Shown here piece by piece: positions 904-15,952 of a stretch of 15,952 bases of DNA; position 1 is the stretch's first letter, and every line of letters starts with the position of its first letter. The stretch is from an uncultured Prevotellaceae bacterium (GTDB lineage: Bacteria > Bacteroidota > Bacteroidia > Bacteroidales > Bacteroidaceae), in the NCBI GenBank assembly GCA_946539475.1, contig CAMNHM010000060.1:1-15952 (forward strand). The letters run 5' to 3'. The position numbers and the translations under genes were made by a program. The notes beneath the pieces were generated by a model. It ran no database searches, had not been told where the DNA came from, and saw only the letters and a list, made by a program, of their open reading frames with translations.

Positions 904-3900
904 ATGAGACGATTTTTCATCCTACTCTCTGCCCTTATGCTGTGCTCGCTTTCAATGAGCGCACAGCGCACCACCGACCGCCTCGACCGCGGGCTCGTTG
1001 CCGTTCCGTCAGGATCAGGCAGCTTTGTCAGCTGGCGCATCTTCGGTGAAGAATACTACGACACGAAGTACAACCTCTATCGCGACGGCGTAAAGGTGAA
1101 CGCCGAACCGCTCGACGTCTCGAACTACGTCGACAACAGCGGACGCGCCGGAGCAAAGTACCAGGTGGCAGCCGTCGTGCGCGGCGTGGAGCAGGAGAAG
1201 AGTGCTGAAACGACACGCCTCGCCCAGCAGTATGTACAGTTTGCCGTCCAGCCGATGTACTCGCGTCGCGGGACGAACATCACCAACGACTACCAGATCA
1301 ACGACATCGCCCTGGCCGACGTCACGGGCGACGGCGTCTCGGAATTTATCCTGAAGCGCAACTACAAGGAGAAGCAGTCTCCACAGAACGACTCTGCCTA
1401 CTGGGCACTGGAGTGCTACACGCTGAAAGGCGAGCGCCTGTGGTACATCGACCTCGGACCGAACATGGTCAGCGGCCCTGACGAGCAGCACGACGCCGTG
1501 GGCTACGACTGGGACGGCGACGGGCGTGCAGAGATCCTCATGCGCGGAGCCGACAACATGATCATCCACCACAGCGACGGTACGACGACGGAGATCGGCA
1601 ACATGAAGGTGAACACCCGCAACACCGTGAACCAGTCGGACGGCAACCTGGCCTACACCAATACGGGCGCCGAGTACCTGCTCTACCTCGACGGACTGAC
1701 CGGAAAGCCCTACCCCATCGGCCCCAACGGACAGCTATGGATGACCTATCCCCTGCCGCGAGGAAACGCCAACGACTGGGGCGACGGCTACGGCCATCGC
1801 TCGACGAAGCACTACTTCGGAGCGCCCTTCCTCGACGGGCGGCACCCCTTCATCTTCCTCGGGCGCGGATGCTACACGAAGCATCACATGAAAGCCTTCT
1901 CCGTCGATCCGCTGACCCACCAGCTGACCCTCTACTGGGAGTGGAAGAGCAGCGAGAACAACTGGAGCGACCCTTGGTTCGGCAACGGATACCATAACTT
2001 CGGAATAGCCGACGTCGACTGGGACGGACGCGACGAGATATGCTTCGGATCGATGGTCATCGACGACAACGGCAAGGGACTGTCGACCACAGGACTGGGA
2101 CACGGCGACGCGCAGCATTGCGGCGACTTCGACCCCTATCGCCACGGACAGGAAATCTTTGCCTGCAACGAGGACGAGCCCGCCATGAACTATCGCAACG
2201 CGACGACCTCGAAGATCTACTACCGCCTGCAGACCACCAGCGACGACGGACGCGCCCTCTGCGGCAACTTCTCGAACGACTATCCCGGTGCCATCGGACG
2301 CTCGTCGCAGTCGGGCACCGTATCGTGCGTCAGCGACAAGGTCATCGCCAACGGGCCGAACGGATTCACCCTCAACTGGCGCATCTACTGGGACGGCGAC
2401 CTGCTTGAGGAGGGCCTCGACGGAGCAGGAACGGAGGGCGTATGCCGCGTCTACAAAGCCAACGGACAGCAGGTATTCTCGACCGAGGGCACGAAAAACT
2501 GCAACTGGACGAAGAACACGCCGTCGGCCACCGGCGACGTGCTGGGCGACTGGCGTGAGGAGATCATCGTCCGCACGTCGGATAATAGATATGTACGCGT
2601 TTACACTACTAATATAAAGACCAACTACCGCAACTATACCCTCTGGCACGACCATCAGTACCGGCAGGCAATGGTATGGGAGACGATAGGATATAATCAG
2701 CCGCCACACGCAAGCTACTTCATCGGCGAGCTGGAAGGCATCACCGTAGCTCCACCACCCCTGACGATGACCGGACGCACGGAGGTGGCCAACGGTGGCA
2801 CGATAGGCAGCGCCCTGAACGGCAAGCACGTCATCGTCTGCGAGACCAACGACACGAAGGTGAACGTCGAGAATGGCGCTCAGCCCTGGGTCGTAACGTT
2901 CAACGTGCCATCGTGGGTACAGGGAACAAACAGCAACATTACCACTGGCAACCCGAAGATTGACTATACCTACTACACCTGCGACGTAGAGGGCGGCGCC
3001 TTCGCTGGCGAGACCCGACTGGTGAAGCAGGGCGACGGCACGCTACAGCTGCCCAAGGTCACGCAGACCTACAGCGGACCTACCGACGTATGGGCGGGCA
3101 CCCTCTGTTTCGACGGCACGCTGGAGCACTCACCGCTGTGGCTCAACCGCTTTACAGAGCTGAACAGCGACGGCGGACGCTTCATGGGCGGCATATCGAT
3201 GGAGTACGACGCCACGCTGCGTCCGGGAGGAGCCGACAAGCAGGGCTCGACGACGACGACGAAACTGGCGATGAACTTCGGATCGCGCATTGTCTTCGAC
3301 CTCTACAACGAGGGCCTCAATGCCGACAAGATCGTTGCCGACGAGCTGACCATAGCCACGAAGAACTGGCAGTACGGTCCGCAGTATCAGCAGCCAATAT
3401 TTGAGTTCGTCACCCATCTCGCCGCTGGCGAGGAAGTGGCTGCCGGACGCTACCTCATCGGCGAGATCAGCGAGCCCGTCGGCAATCTCGACAAGATCCG
3501 CATCGAAGGCATCGACACCAAGCTGAAGGCCGTCCTCGTGCAAGAGGGTAAGAACCTCTACCTGGAGCTCAGCGGCATGCGCGACGCCTCCGACATCACC
3601 TGGACGGGCAGTCTGAGCAACGTGTGGAACGTGGCTGACACCGAGAACTTCAGCACCGACGGACAGAGCAACTTCTTCGTCACGGGCGACAACGTACACT
3701 TCGACGATAGTGCCAGCCAGTTCACGGTATCGCTCAACGGAGAGCTGGAGGCCGACACCGTCTTCGTCGACAACACCAAAACATACACGTTCAGCGGAGC
3801 GGGGGCTCTGGTGGGCAACACCACCCTCGTCAAGCAGGGCAAGGGAACGCTCATCGTCAAGAACGACAACACCTATACCGGCGGCAACCGATTGTCGGGA

Positions 3901-5403
3901 GGCATAGTAACCGTCAGTTCACTGGCTAACGCCAACCAGCCAAAGGGCAATCTTGGAGCAATGACCACCGTAGCCTCGAAGTTCGTCATCGAGAACGGTG
4001 CTGAGCTGCGCACCACAGCTGCCGTCACCAACGGATCGTCCATCCGCTTCGAAGGCGAGGAAGGCGGTGTCATCAACAACTCGGCCGACTTTATCGTCGA
4101 CCGCGCCATGCTGGGCACCAAGCTCACCAAGAAGGGCTCGGGATGGATGAAGCTCAACGTCTCCAACAGCAACCTGCAACGCCTCGTCGTAGCTGCCGGC
4201 ACCGTACAATGTATCAACTCCAACAAACCTGCCAACACCGTAGAGTTCCAGGGCGGCACGCTGCGCGAGAATACCGGAACGAGCTACACCATCGACGTGC
4301 CACGCGGAAAGACCGGCACGTGGTATATGGCAAATCGCTCGACCTACACCAACAAGGTGACGGGCGAGGGAACGCTCAACGCCTACTGCACCACTGAGAA
4401 GGGCACCAACTACTATGCCACACGTACACCTGTGCAATGCGACTTCAGCGCCTTCGAGGGTACGCTGCGTCCATCGTCGGGACAAGACGACCCCGACCTG
4501 CTGCGCTTCACCCTCGACACGTCGAAGGGCATGCCTAAAGGAACGATGAACATCGCCGCCGGCGTAGAAGTGCAGAACAGCGGAAAGACCTTCCGCATCG
4601 GTAAGGTCACGGGTACGGGCAATCTGGGCGGCAGCTGCACCTTCAGCAATGGTGCCAGCGTAGGTGCCAACACCTGGCAGGTGGGCAACGACGACAACTG
4701 GTCGACCACCGTGAAGGTTACGTCGAACGCCAACTTCACAAAGATGGGCAGCGGACGCATCACCTGGTCGGGCGCCAGCGACAATAGCGGCGCGACGACA
4801 ATCAGCGAAGGTGAGCTGGCACTCTCCACCAACGGCAAGCTGGGCACAGGTCGCCTTACCATTGGCCCCAACGGCACCCTCTCGGGCACGAACAAGAAGA
4901 CATCGGCGCTGGCCAACTCGGCCATTGTGGTCAACGGAACGCTGGCACCCAATACGCTCTACATCGACAACAAGAACGTCACCGTCAACGAGGGTGGTAC
5001 GCTGCTCGTCGCTGCCAGCCATTGCGCTACGACTGTCAGCGCCGGATGCGGCACGATGGATGGTATCGCCACGCTTACCCTGAACGGCACGCTGCGCATC
5101 CAGCCGGGGGTGATCAACACACTTCAGGTGGGCGACAGCATCCGTCTGTTCACAGCAAAGAAGTTTGAGGGAACACCGCAGATCGTCGACGAATGCGGCA
5201 TCGAATGGGATGATAGCCGGCTGAGCGAGGGCCTGCTCTTCGTCAAGAGCATCGACACTGGCATCATGCCGACCATCTCCGCAGCAACGCCACATCACAT
5301 CTACGACATCCGCGGCCGACTGGTACGCGCCAATGCCACCAATACCGAGGGACTGCCTGCAGGCATCTATATCTGTGAAGGACATAAATTTGTCATTAGA
5401 TAA
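904..5403 (+). CDS. Secreted PL11 rhamnogalacturonan lyase with autotransporter-like repeat extension
   Basis: PL11 enzymes cut the rhamnose-galacturonate backbone of pectin (rhamnogalacturonan I) by beta-elimination. Residues 1-20 form a signal peptide ending CSLSMSA before Gln. Residues about 21-610 are the PL11 catalytic beta-propeller. They begin LDRGLVAVPSGSGSFVSWR, as in Bacillus YesW, and carry Asp-rich calcium-type loops: ADVTGDG (138-144), YDWDGDGR (201-208), ADVDWDGRDE (369-378), HGDAQHCGDFDP (400-411) and GDWREE (548-553). YesW-type enzymes end near here. The remaining ~890 residues are beta-rich, with four segments resembling the passenger-associated repeat (KxGxGxL...Y.G.T.v..G.L) near 704-738, 973-1008, 1072-1107 and 1278-1317. 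The last 36 residues, with GRLV, LPAGIYI and a basic end (KFVIR), resemble the second half of a type IX secretion sorting domain. The ATG at 904 is chosen because it starts the signal peptide; no Shine-Dalgarno is visible. First gene of a three-gene unit. Confidence 0.93.
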   Translation: MRRFFILLSALMLCSLSMSAQRTTDRLDRGLVAVPSGSGSFVSWRIFGEEYYDTKYNLYRDGVKVNAEPLDVSNYVDNSGRAGAKYQVAAVVRGVEQEKSAETTRLAQQYVQFAVQPMYSRRGTNITNDYQINDIALADVTGDGVSEFILKRNYKEKQSPQNDSAYWALECYTLKGERLWYIDLGPNMVSGPDEQHDAVGYDWDGDGRAEILMRGADNMIIHHSDGTTTEIGNMKVNTRNTVNQSDGNLAYTNTGAEYLLYLDGLTGKPYPIGPNGQLWMTYPLPRGNANDWGDGYGHRSTKHYFGAPFLDGRHPFIFLGRGCYTKHHMKAFSVDPLTHQLTLYWEWKSSENNWSDPWFGNGYHNFGIADVDWDGRDEICFGSMVIDDNGKGLSTTGLGHGDAQHCGDFDPYRHGQEIFACNEDEPAMNYRNATTSKIYYRLQTTSDDGRALCGNFSNDYPGAIGRSSQSGTVSCVSDKVIANGPNGFTLNWRIYWDGDLLEEGLDGAGTEGVCRVYKANGQQVFSTEGTKNCNWTKNTPSATGDVLGDWREEIIVRTSDNRYVRVYTTNIKTNYRNYTLWHDHQYRQAMVWETIGYNQPPHASYFIGELEGITVAPPPLTMTGRTEVANGGTIGSALNGKHVIVCETNDTKVNVENGAQPWVVTFNVPSWVQGTNSNITTGNPKIDYTYYTCDVEGGAFAGETRLVKQGDGTLQLPKVTQTYSGPTDVWAGTLCFDGTLEHSPLWLNRFTELNSDGGRFMGGISMEYDATLRPGGADKQGSTTTTKLAMNFGSRIVFDLYNEGLNADKIVADELTIATKNWQYGPQYQQPIFEFVTHLAAGEEVAAGRYLIGEISEPVGNLDKIRIEGIDTKLKAVLVQEGKNLYLELSGMRDASDITWTGSLSNVWNVADTENFSTDGQSNFFVTGDNVHFDDSASQFTVSLNGELEADTVFVDNTKTYTFSGAGALVGNTTLVKQGKGTLIVKNDNTYTGGNRLSGGIVTVSSLANANQPKGNLGAMTTVASKFVIENGAELRTTAAVTNGSSIRFEGEEGGVINNSADFIVDRAMLGTKLTKKGSGWMKLNVSNSNLQRLVVAAGTVQCINSNKPANTVEFQGGTLRENTGTSYTIDVPRGKTGTWYMANRSTYTNKVTGEGTLNAYCTTEKGTNYYATRTPVQCDFSAFEGTLRPSSGQDDPDLLRFTLDTSKGMPKGTMNIAAGVEVQNSGKTFRIGKVTGTGNLGGSCTFSNGASVGANTWQVGNDDNWSTTVKVTSNANFTKMGSGRITWSGASDNSGATTISEGELALSTNGKLGTGRLTIGPNGTLSGTNKKTSALANSAIVVNGTLAPNTLYIDNKNVTVNEGGTLLVAASHCATTVSAGCGTMDGIATLTLNGTLRIQPGVINTLQVGDSIRLFTAKKFEGTPQIVDECGIEWDDSRLSEGLLFVKSIDTGIMPTISAATPHHIYDIRGRLVRANATNTEGLPAGIYICEGHKFVIR

Positions 5404-9285: not shown

Positions 9286-9918
9286 ATGGAAAAGATCATA
9301 TTGGGCATCGACCCAGGAACAAATATCATGGGATACGGTGTGCTGAAAGTGAGCAGCGGACCGACAACCGCCCGCCGTGCCAGCAAACAAGCCGAGATGG
9401 TGACAATGGGAATCATCGACCTGAGAAAGTTCGACGATGCCTACCTGAAGCTGGGGCATATCTTCGAGCGAGTTACGGGCATCATCCAGTCGTACCTGCC
9501 CGACGAGATGGCCATCGAAGCACCGTTCTTCGGCAAGAATGTACAGTCGATGCTGAAGCTGGGACGCGCACAAGGGGTGGCCATCGCTGCTGCCATCGAG
9601 CGTAGCGTGCCCATACATGAGTACGCCCCCATGAAGATTAAGATGGCGCTGACAGGAAATGGCAATGCATCGAAGGAACAAGTGGCAGGCATGCTGCAGC
9701 GCTTGCTGAAGATTCCACAGGAGGAGATGGGCCATTTCATGGATGCTACCGATGCACTGGCTGCCGCCTACTGCCACTACCTGCAGATGGGGCGCCCGAA
9801 CACCGATGCGCCCCACTATAGTGGATGGAAAGATTTCGTGAACAAGAACCGACAGAAACTATGGACACCACAGAAGCCAAGAGAAGACAGGGAAGAGTCG
9901 TCGTCATCGCAGGACTAA
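9286..9918 (+). CDS. ruvC: Holliday junction resolvase RuvC
   Basis: Crossover-junction endonuclease that acts with the RuvAB helicase to resolve four-way DNA junctions. The 210-aa product begins [20 protein letters not shown], the normal RuvC N-terminus, which supports the ATG at 9286. The four acidic metal-binding residues are present: D9 (GIDPG), E78 (AIEAPFF), and D153 and D156 ([16 protein letters not shown]). The family core is about 160-190 aa. The extra length here is a charged, Ser-rich C-terminal tail (after about residue 185), and the following gene overlaps this tail in another frame. ruvA and ruvB are not in the window. Confidence 0.96.
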
Positions 9919-11162
9919 ACGCCAGCGGCAAAACACGCATGGTAGAGGAGATGCGCCGCAGGATGGGTAGTGACAACGTGCGCTACGTGGCTTTCTGCGA
10001 CACATACGGTACTGCCACCGACCGCAGTTACTACCTGCAGCAACGCTGGAACCAGCACGACATCGACGAAGAGACGCCTCGCGTGGGAGAAGCTCTAGAG
10101 CGCTCGTTCCTACTGTCAGGCAGCGACAACGTCGAACGACGACAGTACCAGCAATACCTCTACGAACTGACGGGCATGCAACCGCTGCTCGACAAATATG
10201 TCATCACCCTATCCAGCGGCGAACTGCGGAAGATGCAATTGGTAAAAACGCTGATGGCACGTCCGTCGACACTCATCCTCGACAATCCGTTTATCGGGCT
10301 CGACAGCAAGGCAAGAGAGATGCTCTCCACGCAGCTGCTACAGCTGAAGGAACAGGGCATGCAGCTCTATTTGGTCATTGCCCGACCTGGCGAGATACCT
10401 CCTTTTGCAGACGAGATCATCTGGACTACTCCCGAATCACAATTCAACGCGACACATCCATCGACCCTTGCATCCAGCATGCCAGTCAGCACCAATCAGA
10501 CATCGGCTCGCCCAATCGTCGAACTGCATGACGTCAGCATCCGATACGGCGACCGTATCATCCTCAACCATCTGTCTTGGACCATCAACGAGGGCGAACA
10601 TTGGGCATTGTCAGGCCGCAACGGAAGCGGTAAGTCGACGCTGCTGTCTCTCATTTCAGCCGACAACCCACAAGCTTATGCCTGCGACATCGCACTCTTC
10701 GGACATCAGCGGGGGTCGGGCGAAAGTATCTGGGATATCAAGCGACGCATTGGCTACGTATCACCCGAACTACATCGCTCTTACCTGCGGAACCTGCCTC
10801 TGATCAGTATCGTCGCCAGCGGACTGAAGGACACCGTAGGACTCTATTCACGATACGACGAAGCAGAAAAACAGCAATGCGTCAGATGGATGCAACGATT
10901 TGGATTAGAAGGACTTCATCAGCGATCGTTCCTACAAGTCTCTAGTGGTGAACAGCGGCTGGCACTCGTCTGCCGAGCATTCGTGAAGAATCCCGACCTG
11001 CTCATCCTCGACGAGCCAATGCACGGACTAGACCTTCAGCGCCAGCAGCTGACAAAGGACATCATCGACGAATACTGCCATCAACCCACTAAAACGCTCA
11101 TCATGGTGAGCCACTACGAAGAAGAACTGCCCACCTGCATCGATTATCGGCTGCAGCTTTAA
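9861..11162 (+). CDS. modF: ModF-like protein with two ABC ATPase domains
   Basis: Soluble protein with two ABC nucleotide-binding domains and no membrane segments. It resembles E. coli ModF, whose exact role is unsettled (named for molybdate transport, also called PhrA). Domain 1 has Walker A GLNASGKT (18-25, with Ala where Gly is usual), signature LSSGE (117-121) and Walker B LILDNPF (138-144), in which N142 replaces the catalytic Glu. Domain 2 is complete: GRNGSGKST (252-260), VSSGE (360-364), LLILDEP (380-386) and switch H418. The stretch [20 protein letters not shown] in domain 2 is nearly shared with E. coli ModF. The ATG at 9861 is preferred; an in-frame ATG at 9825 would add 12 residues. 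Either start overlaps ruvC, by 58 or 94 bases, and later ATGs would remove Walker A. No molybdate transporter genes are nearby. Confidence 0.85.
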
Positions 11163-13874: not shown

Positions 13875-14783
13875 TCAACCGCCGATAACGACCTGCAGCC
13901 CATACGACTCCAGCAATGCCTTGCAATGATGCTGAAGAGCATCCGAGGGGGCGCTCATCGCCAGCCGCCCGGGGTTGTACGTGCTCCACATCCGGCGATG
14001 CTTGTCGCGTCCCACATCGTGGTAGGGCAGCAGATTGACGGTACGACGCTGCCAGGGCAGGTCACTCAGGAACCGCCCCGTGGCTCGGAGGTTCTCGTCG
14101 TCGGCATTCACCCCGTCAATCAGCGGGATGCGGATGAAGAAGTCCCTCCCCTGCCCTGCCAGCCAACGGATGTTTTCTAGGATCTGCTCATTAGGCACAC
14201 CAGTATAGCGGCGATGTGCTTCAGAGTCCATCAGTTTCAGGTCGACGAGAAACAGTTCGCAGCAGTCGGCCACGCGACGCACCACGTCGCTAGTGGCATA
14301 GAGCGTAGTGTCGACAGTCCGATGGAAGCCACGCCGTCCAAGCTCCTGCAACAGCTGCACGCAATAGTCGGCATGCATCAGCGGCTCGCCTCCACAGAGG
14401 GTCACCCCTCCGCCGCTGTCCTCCATGATGTCGCGCTCCTTCTCTACTTCGGCCATCAGGTCGTCCATCGTCCACTGCCGTCCGCAGACCTCCAATGCCT
14501 TCGTAGGACACTCCTCAGCGCACTGCCCACAAAGCAGGCACCGTCCGTCGTCGCGGACGATGCCCTCTGGTGTCAGCCGTAGTGCCTGCTGCGCACAAGT
14601 CTTTACACAGCTCTGACAGCCGATGCACTTCGACTGCTTGTAGAGTAACTGACGCTCAGCCAGCCAGCTTTCCGGATTATGACACCACACGCAGCGCAAC
14701 GGACAGCCCTTCAGGAAAAGCGTCGTACGTATGCCCGGCCCGTCGTTGATGGCATACCGTTTAATATCGAATATCAGCGCCAT
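13875..14783 (-). CDS. Glycyl-radical-enzyme activating protein (radical SAM, two ferredoxin clusters)
   Basis: Installs the glycyl radical on its partner enzyme by reductive cleavage of S-adenosylmethionine. The 302-aa product begins MALIFDIKRYAINDGPGIRT. The radical-SAM cluster motif is CPLRCVWC (C27, C31, C34). An inserted ferredoxin-like domain carries two 4Fe-4S sets, C53/56/59/63 and C82/85/88/92; this type activates the eliminase/decarboxylase group of glycyl radical enzymes, whereas the pyruvate formate-lyase activase has no such insert. GGGVTLCGGEPLMH is the SAM-binding GGEP motif, and DLKLMDSEAHRRYTGV is typical of the family. One oddity is VDTTLYA, where most family members have a Gly before the Tyr. 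The start at 14783 is used because upstream in-frame sequence overlaps the preceding gene and lacks family similarity. It lies 10 bases after the glycyl radical enzyme stop, in one operon with it. Confidence 0.93.
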   Translation of the reverse strand: MALIFDIKRYAINDGPGIRTTLFLKGCPLRCVWCHNPESWLAERQLLYKQSKCIGCQSCVKTCAQQALRLTPEGIVRDDGRCLLCGQCAEECPTKALEVCGRQWTMDDLMAEVEKERDIMEDSGGGVTLCGGEPLMHADYCVQLLQELGRRGFHRTVDTTLYATSDVVRRVADCCELFLVDLKLMDSEAHRRYTGVPNEQILENIRWLAGQGRDFFIRIPLIDGVNADDENLRATGRFLSDLPWQRRTVNLLPYHDVGRDKHRRMWSTYNPGRLAMSAPSDALQHHCKALLESYGLQVVIGG

Positions 14784-14793
14784 ACTCAGACAG

Positions 14794-15952
14794 CTACACC
14801 TCCTCGTTCTCCGTGCGGGCAATGATCTCGTTCTGCAGTTGCTCGGTCATGTCGTTGAAGTAGTCGCTGTATCCAGCCACGCGCACCAGCAGGTCACGAT
14901 AGTTGTCAGGATGTCGCTGGGCGTCGAGCAGCGTCTCTGTGTCGACGATGTTAAACTGGATGTGATGTCCGCCAAATTTGAAGTAAGTACGAATCAGCGA
15001 AGCCAGCTTGCGCTGGTCTTCTTCCCTTCTCAGCAGCTGCGGCACGAAGCGCATGTTGAGCAGCGTGCCTCCGCTCTTCGTCTGGTCGAGCTTTCCCAGC
15101 GACTTGACGACCGCCGTCGGCCCGTAGGTGTCAGCACCATGAGCCGGCGATGTGCCGTCGCTGATGGCGAAGTGGGCAAAGCGTCCGTTGGGCGTTGCGC
15201 CGCAGACGCTGCCGAAGTAGTTGTGGCAGGTGGTAGAGAGCATGTTCAGCTGCGTCTTTCCGCCACGGGTGTTAGGACGTCCCTCGATGGCTTTCACCAG
15301 GTCGTCGTAGACGCGCACGGCAATCTCGTCGGCATAGGCATCGTCGTTGCCGAAGAAGGGAGAATGGTTGCGGATGTACTGGCGCATAACAGCCCCCTCT
15401 CCGGCTCCCAAGGGGGCTTCTTTACCTTGTTGGACATTTGTGTCCCCCTCGGGGGACGAAAGGGGGGCTCCCCAGTTGTTCTTGCATGCCTCCAGAATCT
15501 GGTCCATCGTATATCGGCGGTCCTCGAAGACGTGCTTCTTCAGCGTAGTAAAACAGTCGGTGATGGTGCCCAGGCCGGTACACTGTATATAGGTGGTATT
15601 GTAGCGTGCGCCGCCGCTATAGTAGTCGCGTCCCTTCTCGATGCAGTCGTCGATGTAGAGGCTGAGGAAGGTGGCAGGGGCATAGAGCGAGAACATCCGC
15701 TCGATGTAGTTGTTGACGGCGAGCTTCAGGTTGACGAAGTAGACCATCTGCCGATGCCATGCATCGTAGAGCTGCTCAAACGACGTAAACGTCCGCGGGT
15801 CGCCGGTCTCCAGCCCCAGCTTCTTGCCAGTCTCGGGGTCGAAGCCATTATTGAGGGTGATCTCCAGGATCTTGGGGGTGTTGAGGTAGCCCGTCAGCAG
15901 ATAGGCCTCCTTGCCGAAGGATGCAACCTCGATGCAGCCTGAGCAACCTCCC
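14794..15952 (-). CDS. hypD: Glycyl radical enzyme, probably trans-4-hydroxy-L-proline dehydratase; C-terminal half
   Basis: About 385 residues are visible; the 5' half lies beyond the right edge (family about 780-800 aa). The catalytic cysteine motif SGCIE is at the edge (Cys codon 15934-15936, followed by Ile-Glu), and the radical glycine is in RVAGYSDYF (Gly codon 14872-14874). Eliminases and decarboxylases share this GCxE form, and it separates them from pyruvate formate-lyase. The segments FGKEAYLLTGY, PKILEITLNNG, ETGDPRTF, DDCIEKGRDY, GGARYN and GHHIQFN follow, from memory, C. difficile HypD closely, so HypD is the best call. HypD dehydrates 4-hydroxyproline to pyrroline-5-carboxylate. 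The substrate-binding N-terminal half is not visible, so another dehydratase is possible. An in-frame palindromic insert (15391-15472) adds about 22 residues between NNW and VMRQY. The activase gene follows 10 bases downstream. Confidence 0.85.
   Translation of the reverse strand, partial: GGCSGCIEVASFGKEAYLLTGYLNTPKILEITLNNGFDPETGKKLGLETGDPRTFTSFEQLYDAWHRQMVYFVNLKLAVNNYIERMFSLYAPATFLSLYIDDCIEKGRDYYSGGARYNTTYIQCTGLGTITDCFTTLKKHVFEDRRYTMDQILEACKNNWGAPLSSPEGDTNVQQGKEAPLGAGEGAVMRQYIRNHSPFFGNDDAYADEIAVRVYDDLVKAIEGRPNTRGGKTQLNMLSTTCHNYFGSVCGATPNGRFAHFAISDGTSPAHGADTYGPTAVVKSLGKLDQTKSGGTLLNMRFVPQLLRREEDQRKLASLIRTYFKFGGHHIQFNIVDTETLLDAQRHPDNYRDLLVRVAGYSDYFNDMTEQLQNEIIARTENEEV
15391..15472 (-). repeat. 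GC-rich palindromic element read in frame within the glycyl radical enzyme gene
   Basis: Plus-strand AGCCCCCT (15391-15398) pairs with AGGGGGCT (15411-15418) across 12 bases. A second palindrome, GTCCCCCTCGGGGGAC, is at 15442-15457, and an alternative stem GGACA/TGTCC is at 15432-15445. The right end AGGGGGGCT (15461-15469) is again complementary to the left end, and GGCTCCC occurs at 15403-15409 and 15466-15472. On the coding strand the region encodes 27 residues rich in Gly, Pro, Ala and Glu, with GAPL and EAPLGA as related sub-units. The related HypD enzyme has only about five residues (EGYEA) there. The flanking protein is intact and in frame. Exact ends and any target duplication cannot be fixed without an uninterrupted relative. 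Confidence 0.75.

Follow-up and report, generated by a model that had tools for sequence, protein, structure and literature searches.

The locus and its inserted element

The window, meaning the whole stretch of 15,952 nt analysed here, ends within a gene for a HypD-like glycyl radical enzyme (14794..15951, minus strand), of which it contains the 385 C-terminal codons; the remainder of this ORF lies outside the window, and its nearest solved structure is 6vxc, the trans-4-hydroxy-L-proline dehydratase HypD (E 3.7e-122). The adjacent gene on the same strand (13875..14783), whose start was set at an inner ATG of the ORF 13875-14822, is one that we take from its sequence to encode a radical-SAM-type activating enzyme. 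The plus strand carries a 1499-residue ORF (904-5403), in which, judged by eye, a polysaccharide-lyase-like start is followed by a long region of passenger-like character. Two further plus-strand ORFs, RuvC-like (9286-9918) and ABC-ATPase-like (9825-11162) by eye, overlap by 94 nt as listed, and the true start of the latter is probably further in.

Inside the glycyl radical enzyme gene lies a palindromic element of 79 bp, here called P1 (15391..15469, minus strand). A profile derived from the relative genome G003 aligns with it over its entire length (E 1.5e-17), and BLAST matches in relatives end at query positions 16-94, which correspond to both P1 ends. These ends are terminal inverted repeats of the AGCCCCCC...GGGGGGCT type, reading AGCCCCCCTTTC...GAGGGGGCT on the coding strand. 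In the coding direction, the first half is unit 1 (28 bp, 15442..15469, minus strand; peptide (G)APLSSPEGD), followed by a spacer of 23 nt (15419..15441, minus strand) and by unit 2 (28 bp, 15391..15418, minus strand; peptide EAPLGAGEGA), the latter reading EAPSGAVGGA in 52 of 60 sense copies from relatives. The spacer is variable among other P1 copies, and total element length stays at 1 mod 3. The inverted-repeat arms span 26 nt with 77% complementarity, and the GC-rich palindromic units are in frame; arms and ORF thus agree with the initial annotation, which had described two such units within this gene. The extent that it gave, 15391-15472, has the same start but runs 3 bases beyond the profile-defined end at 15469. 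The predicted fold of the coding strand of 15380-15484 (-45.6 kcal/mol, z -2.1) was equalled by 5 of 200 shuffles and is therefore, by itself, just moderately unusual.

Alignment with 80 orthologues (the best 80 of 204 relatives) delimits 27 inserted codons (GAPLSSPEGDTNVQQGKEAPLGAGEGA; 81 nt, 15391..15471, minus strand), equivalent to P1 plus two bases and located between the NNW and VMRQY segments of the enzyme. The gene in the window measures 1155 nt as against 1086 nt in insert-free orthologues, a difference of 69 nt or 23 codons, and it has 28 residues between NW and MR where these orthologues have 5. The 27-residue insert proposed at the outset is thus retained, while its net gain of about 22 residues (27 in place of about five) becomes 23. 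A full-length model of the orthologue L001, built with 43 sequences and of moderate mean confidence (pLDDT 63.6), has 6vxc as its top structural match (E 7.6e-51, 46% identity). In this model, residues 614-638, inside the insert, score below 50 in pLDDT and are flanked by helices 600-608 and 637-650. We read the insert as a predicted disordered inter-helix loop; of the earlier proposal of a surface loop between helices, it is the inter-helix position that the model supports, in a low-confidence segment. The gene fragment in the window gave a poor model, with a mean pLDDT of 58.5.

One enzyme loop with many fillings

The loop through MR inclusive is usually 7 residues long. Among the best 80 of 204 orthologues, 30 have extra residues at this position and 50 have none, as expected by the initial annotation, which had called for orthologues lacking the insert; these 50 include L065, in which the stretch aligns shorter. 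The 30 inserts, classed by eye from their DNA, are diverse. Three (L001-L003) are of the P1 class, like the window, three (L004, L009, L016) carry a second palindrome, P2, and six (L006, L010, L011, L012, L021, L030) a third, P3; the remainder comprise seven AT-richer or tandem inserts, three with inverted GAACTCC-type repeats, and eight others. The whole-protein alignment of the same 80 rows, with 799 core columns, sites in the first five columns left out and a few proteins incomplete, contains a sole other inserted region, at core columns 233-242. This second insertion-taking loop, outside the window, is occupied in 15 of the 80 orthologues by inserts that include palindrome-type and SYESYESYG-type repeats, and in the L001 model it falls between helices 203-241 and 253-270.

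An orthologue tree was built by a quick search from these 80 rows, with both insert regions removed and the window fragment left out, and 26 of its 77 inner branches are open. On this tree, insert presence requires a minimum of 18 changes; for the seven classes the figure is 25, where the least possible is 6 and the shuffled mean 29.1. On starred branches alone, the 'none' label must change 10 times or more. A single loop has thus acquired, exchanged or lost its inserts many times.

Distribution of P1 among related genomes

Copies of P1 were sought in the genomes of relatives, 16 of which we chose for counting. BLAST returned between 1 and 78 matches per genome at E <= 1, counts in which a palindromic copy may figure twice and which, in G002, G003 and G008, rest on 40 scored candidates; the weakest genomes were G014 and G015, with best matches at E 0.09 and 0.92. 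The closest match to the element in the window (94% identity over 80 nt) comes from another genome, where it lies in a different gene. Within G003, copies in unrelated genes reach 94.9% and 93.4% identity, so that copying between genes is real. With a 79-nt query, 14 of 100 relatives of G003, counting G003 itself and G008, match at E <= 1e-6, and a phylum-wide draw of 395 genomes gave one match at E <= 1e-8, namely G003. On these sequence comparisons, P1 is a multi-copy family seen here solely among relatives of rumen Prevotella. The repeated palindrome suspected from the window alone is thus found in many copies, in unrelated genes of several genomes.

These copies are mostly single, tandem arrays not being the rule, and adjacent pairs are few. 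Copies lying side by side in one gene, each in frame, were observed in L098 and in G008 (C15 24456-24612). In G003, 12 of 22 copies fall on contigs C18 and C25 (L119-L125), within 140 of 1198 kb, on contigs picked for their matches. Searches for a phage or plasmid vehicle, made in viral contigs with an exact 26-base pattern and also in plasmids and phages, found no P1, and this route was rejected.

Frame, length and orientation of the copies

One phase is common to 67 of 68 full-length genic copies. Length is 1 mod 3 in all 40 exact-ended genic copies and in all 60 full-length sense copies, the latter measuring 79 bp (26 copies), 91 bp (16), 82 and 85 bp (6 each), or 64, 76 and 88 bp (2 each). 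The frame in use is free of stops in 67/68, and the two remaining frames are interrupted in 63/68 and 58/68, so that selection on the open frame accounts for the shared phase. Excision from the mRNA, or bypass by the ribosome, was considered and judged unlikely because length is 1 mod 3 in 60/60 copies and stops are lacking. Frame, length and the absence of stops agree with the in-frame translation first proposed for the window, and P1 is very likely translated as part of its host proteins.

As to orientation, judged by diagnostic words, 71 of 84 genic places carry P1 in sense, 7 in reverse, and 6 are unclear. In 65/68 copies the reverse complement of P1, read in the same phase, is open too, and stop selection therefore does not account for the sense bias; nor is this bias merely a product of ancestry common to the genomes, since the G003 tiles alone give 19 sense copies to 2. 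Among the 60 sense copies, departures from consensus are synonymous in 49/60 cases for unit 2 and 61/104 for unit 1, against 31% and 29% under uniform change, a test that is weakened by palindrome constraint, which could mimic part of the excess, and by subfamily variants held in common.

Genic location and host genes

Location was examined in a 1.198-Mb sample of G003, made of contigs with BLAST matches chosen blind to genes, using a home-made ORF caller that gives a coding fraction of 0.854 in the G003 tiles. An iterated profile (E <= 1e-3) identified 22 distinct copies, all 22 within genes, although the reading of one (C25 22171) is doubtful; there is also a weak extragenic match, at C12 3228-3352 with E 0.005, that may represent a P1 copy in decay. 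The G008 sample of 385 kb has five copies, of which three are genic (two of them adjacent), one is at a gene edge and one is intergenic, and in 392 kb of G005 four of five are genic and one intergenic. Over the stretches from these three genomes, 29 of 32 copies are genic (p 0.28 against coding density). The pooled DNA gave 103 raw copies, reduced to 88 places by removing near-end and identical-flank ones, and 84 of these places are genic, 3 at an edge and 1 intergenic; the genic share gives p 0.0095 against coding density, with the reservation that 65 of the 88 places come from best-match loci and that sister genomes may share insertions, so that places are not independent. The count of in-gene and intergenic copies in relatives that the initial annotation had proposed thus comes out heavily genic. 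That annotation had not anticipated this genic predominance, the bias to one sense and frame, or the occupation of the same enzyme loop by other repeat types in other species.

Gene targeting was rejected as a conclusion from this count, the genic share being near coding density with an excess that is nil to slight. What is noteworthy is that P1 copies in genes are retained at roughly the rate at which blind landing would put them there, while most of the other repeats checked are intergenic. Twelve of the most repeated 14-mers in G003 were examined, out of 111: three P1 words are genic at 22/22, 21/21 and 11/11 places, and eight words that belong to other repeats, some of them to a single one, at 1/125. 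Other repeat words in G008 and G005 are genic at few or no places, barring a P3-like word in G008 (4/7). P2 and P3, each multi-copy within its own genomes, occupy best-match loci at 30 and 33 places; 23 P2 places are genic and 7 intergenic, and 16 P3 places are genic, 9 at an edge and 8 intergenic. Since one and the same caller yields these figures, a gene-caller bias was discarded, and P1 is one extreme of a range of gene-boundness in which P2 and P3 are less gene-bound. A TCTCACC-type repeat was also seen in G003 (tiles L111-L170), genic at 10/11 places and in one orientation in 10/11 of the in-gene rows; it occupies uvrA together with a P1 copy.

The hosts of P1 in G003 are diverse. An NCBIfam scan covered 18 of the host proteins, leaving out the glycyl radical enzyme and one protein crossing a tile. 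Matches above the curated cut-off identified ArgRS, Lon, UvrA, RlmD, GcvT, AlaRS and a GH92 glycosyl hydrolase, and those below it comprised RlmB-like, FucP-like, ABC exporter, Dcp/oligopeptidase A-like and two glucosaminidase-like proteins. Another protein had S1-domain matches only, and we take it to be Tex; four others were unmatched, one at 1e-20 and three at 1e-10. In aligned orthologues, P1 sites are loops of varying length, and empty, shortened and filled versions of the orthologous loop were found for GcvT, UvrA, ArgRS, AlaRS, Lon, RlmD and the Tex-like protein, including a whole-codon remnant in the AlaRS of G001 and a shortened copy in the GcvT of G002. The RlmD of G001 (L252) has a CCATCCACCATTC-type tandem repeat in frame, exactly at the P1 site of G003.

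Seventeen G003 sites were probed in G002. Nine have an element-sized gap (75-91 nt) and two a longer gap containing a P1 copy (L273, L254); for the rest, GcvT is shortened, ArgRS has other sequence and four gave no resolved answer. Many insertions thus predate the split between these genomes. Empty-site alignments gave no exact insertion boundaries, the loops having diverged.

Origin and spread of P1

Taken together, we favour, with a probability of about 75%, a lineage-restricted, non-autonomous P1 family whose copies have entered unrelated genes and are translated there, and which has spread with the help of selection and lock-in. New copies would land through an activity that leaves no target duplication, and selection would retain those that place the stop-free frame in a tolerant loop, where the 27-residue Pro/Gly/Ser-rich peptide would be a tolerated flexible excursion with no new domain. 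Genic copies would then be locked in, because most deletions break the gene, and would shrink by whole codons only, as the AlaRS and GcvT remnants illustrate. This combination of some activity with selection and lock-in is our best guess for the spread of P1, not far from even when set against a function of the element or a transcription-linked entry, because stop selection leaves both the sense bias and the small number of intergenic copies unaccounted for.

The same two observations are the starting point of two rival explanations. An RNA-linked or transcription-coupled process might copy P1 into transcribed coding sequence on its sense strand, making genic, sense and in-frame copies the outcome of mechanism and not of selection alone; we regard this as a minority possibility, which, if true, would make P1 a mobile element that encodes a peptide and needs expressed genes in order to spread. 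Alternatively, the hairpins or the peptide might be useful, through pausing, mRNA stability or an interaction, with genic sense copies kept for that purpose. The sense bias despite an open reverse complement, the synonymous excess in both units and the few intergenic copies all speak for such a function, but P1 is patchy among relatives (14/100), orthologues of the same hosts do without it, other repeats occupy the same loops and shortened copies persist, all of which makes a function unlikely. Far less credible, indeed close to negligible, is the reading that the loop is native to the enzyme family or that it arose as an artefact of assembly: apart from being open and in frame, the insert has nothing to recommend such a reading, and the 50 of the best 80 of 204 orthologues without extra residues, on which the native loop was rejected, are joined by similar DNA in unrelated genes and by the same insertions recurring across separate assemblies.

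Known classes of mobile palindromes fare poorly as well. With its inverted-repeat ends, its numerous copies and no internal gene, P1 resembles a classical MITE, an element that is mobilised by a DDE transposase whose terminal repeats match its own. However, the target duplication that the initial annotation had suggested looking for did not appear: none of 70 de-duplicated full-length places had 5 or more matching bases, and one had 4. A MITE with target duplication is not supported on this count, and the class as a whole is improbable. A REP/BIME family that owes its movement to a RAYT (Y1 transposase) would fit the paired palindromes and the missing target duplication, and by eye unit 1 has CGTC directly before its inner palindrome. 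Y1_Tnp matches occur in 8 of the 16 genomes, including the P1-rich G002, G007, G008 and G012. Yet five other P1-rich genomes (G001, G003, G004, G005 and G009, with 24 to 74 BLAST matches) have no Y1_Tnp match, a weak absence given that these are drafts, and the 12 Y1_Tnp loci contain neither P1, P2 nor P3; REPs are, in addition, largely intergenic in the part of the literature consulted (PMC3733652). RAYT-driven movement of P1 was therefore set aside as highly improbable.

Comparison with known palindromic and coding repeats

Protein-coding palindromic repeats are best known from Rickettsia. In the literature searched, which leaves most subscription journals outside, we found none described for Prevotella. 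Dispersed repeats have been described in the same bacterial order as P1, namely BrickBuilt in Porphyromonas gingivalis (PMC4596501) and PINSR in Prevotella intermedia (PMC4755523), but the portions of these reports consulted place both in intergenic regions, unlike P1. REP/BIME elements, tagged with GTAG and CGTC, share short paired palindromes with P1, and, according to the sections consulted, are mostly intergenic with some copies in ORFs, including uvrA and recB, and are tied to RAYT genes (PMC3733652), whereas P1 is mostly genic and abundant in five drafts without a RAYT match. Like MITEs, P1 has terminal inverted repeats, but it lacks their target site duplication. PARCEL repeats are coding and have DNA dyad symmetry, as P1 does, but in the text consulted they form tandem arrays of 25-residue amphipathic repeats (PMC2996958), whereas P1 is mostly single and sits in loops of conserved proteins.

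Rumen bacteria would offer a case of Rickettsia-like protein remodelling that involves more than one repeat family and affects enzymes, AlaRS, ArgRS and Lon among them, for which close relatives have empty loops. A single enzyme loop with unrelated fillings across species provides a natural series on loop tolerance and on the passage from selfish DNA to protein. It also carries a warning for annotation, namely that peptides common to such proteins are not domains.

The closest counterparts of P1 are the Rickettsia palindromic elements, to which the initial annotation had already likened it and which, in the part of a 2024 review that was consulted, are about 150 bp long, have nearly half of their copies in ORFs, and are likewise multi-copy palindromes encoding a conserved peptide in frame within unrelated genes (PMC10969869). 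From the same part of that review, comparable remodelling by repeats in other prokaryotes was held to be 'conceivable' (PMC10969869). P1 differs in its size (64-91 bp), in the genic position of nearly all its places and in its phylum, and the likeness, which holds for the multi-copy, conserved-peptide and in-frame character of both, is one of behaviour. P1 acts like the Rickettsia palindromic elements, yet is more gene-bound.
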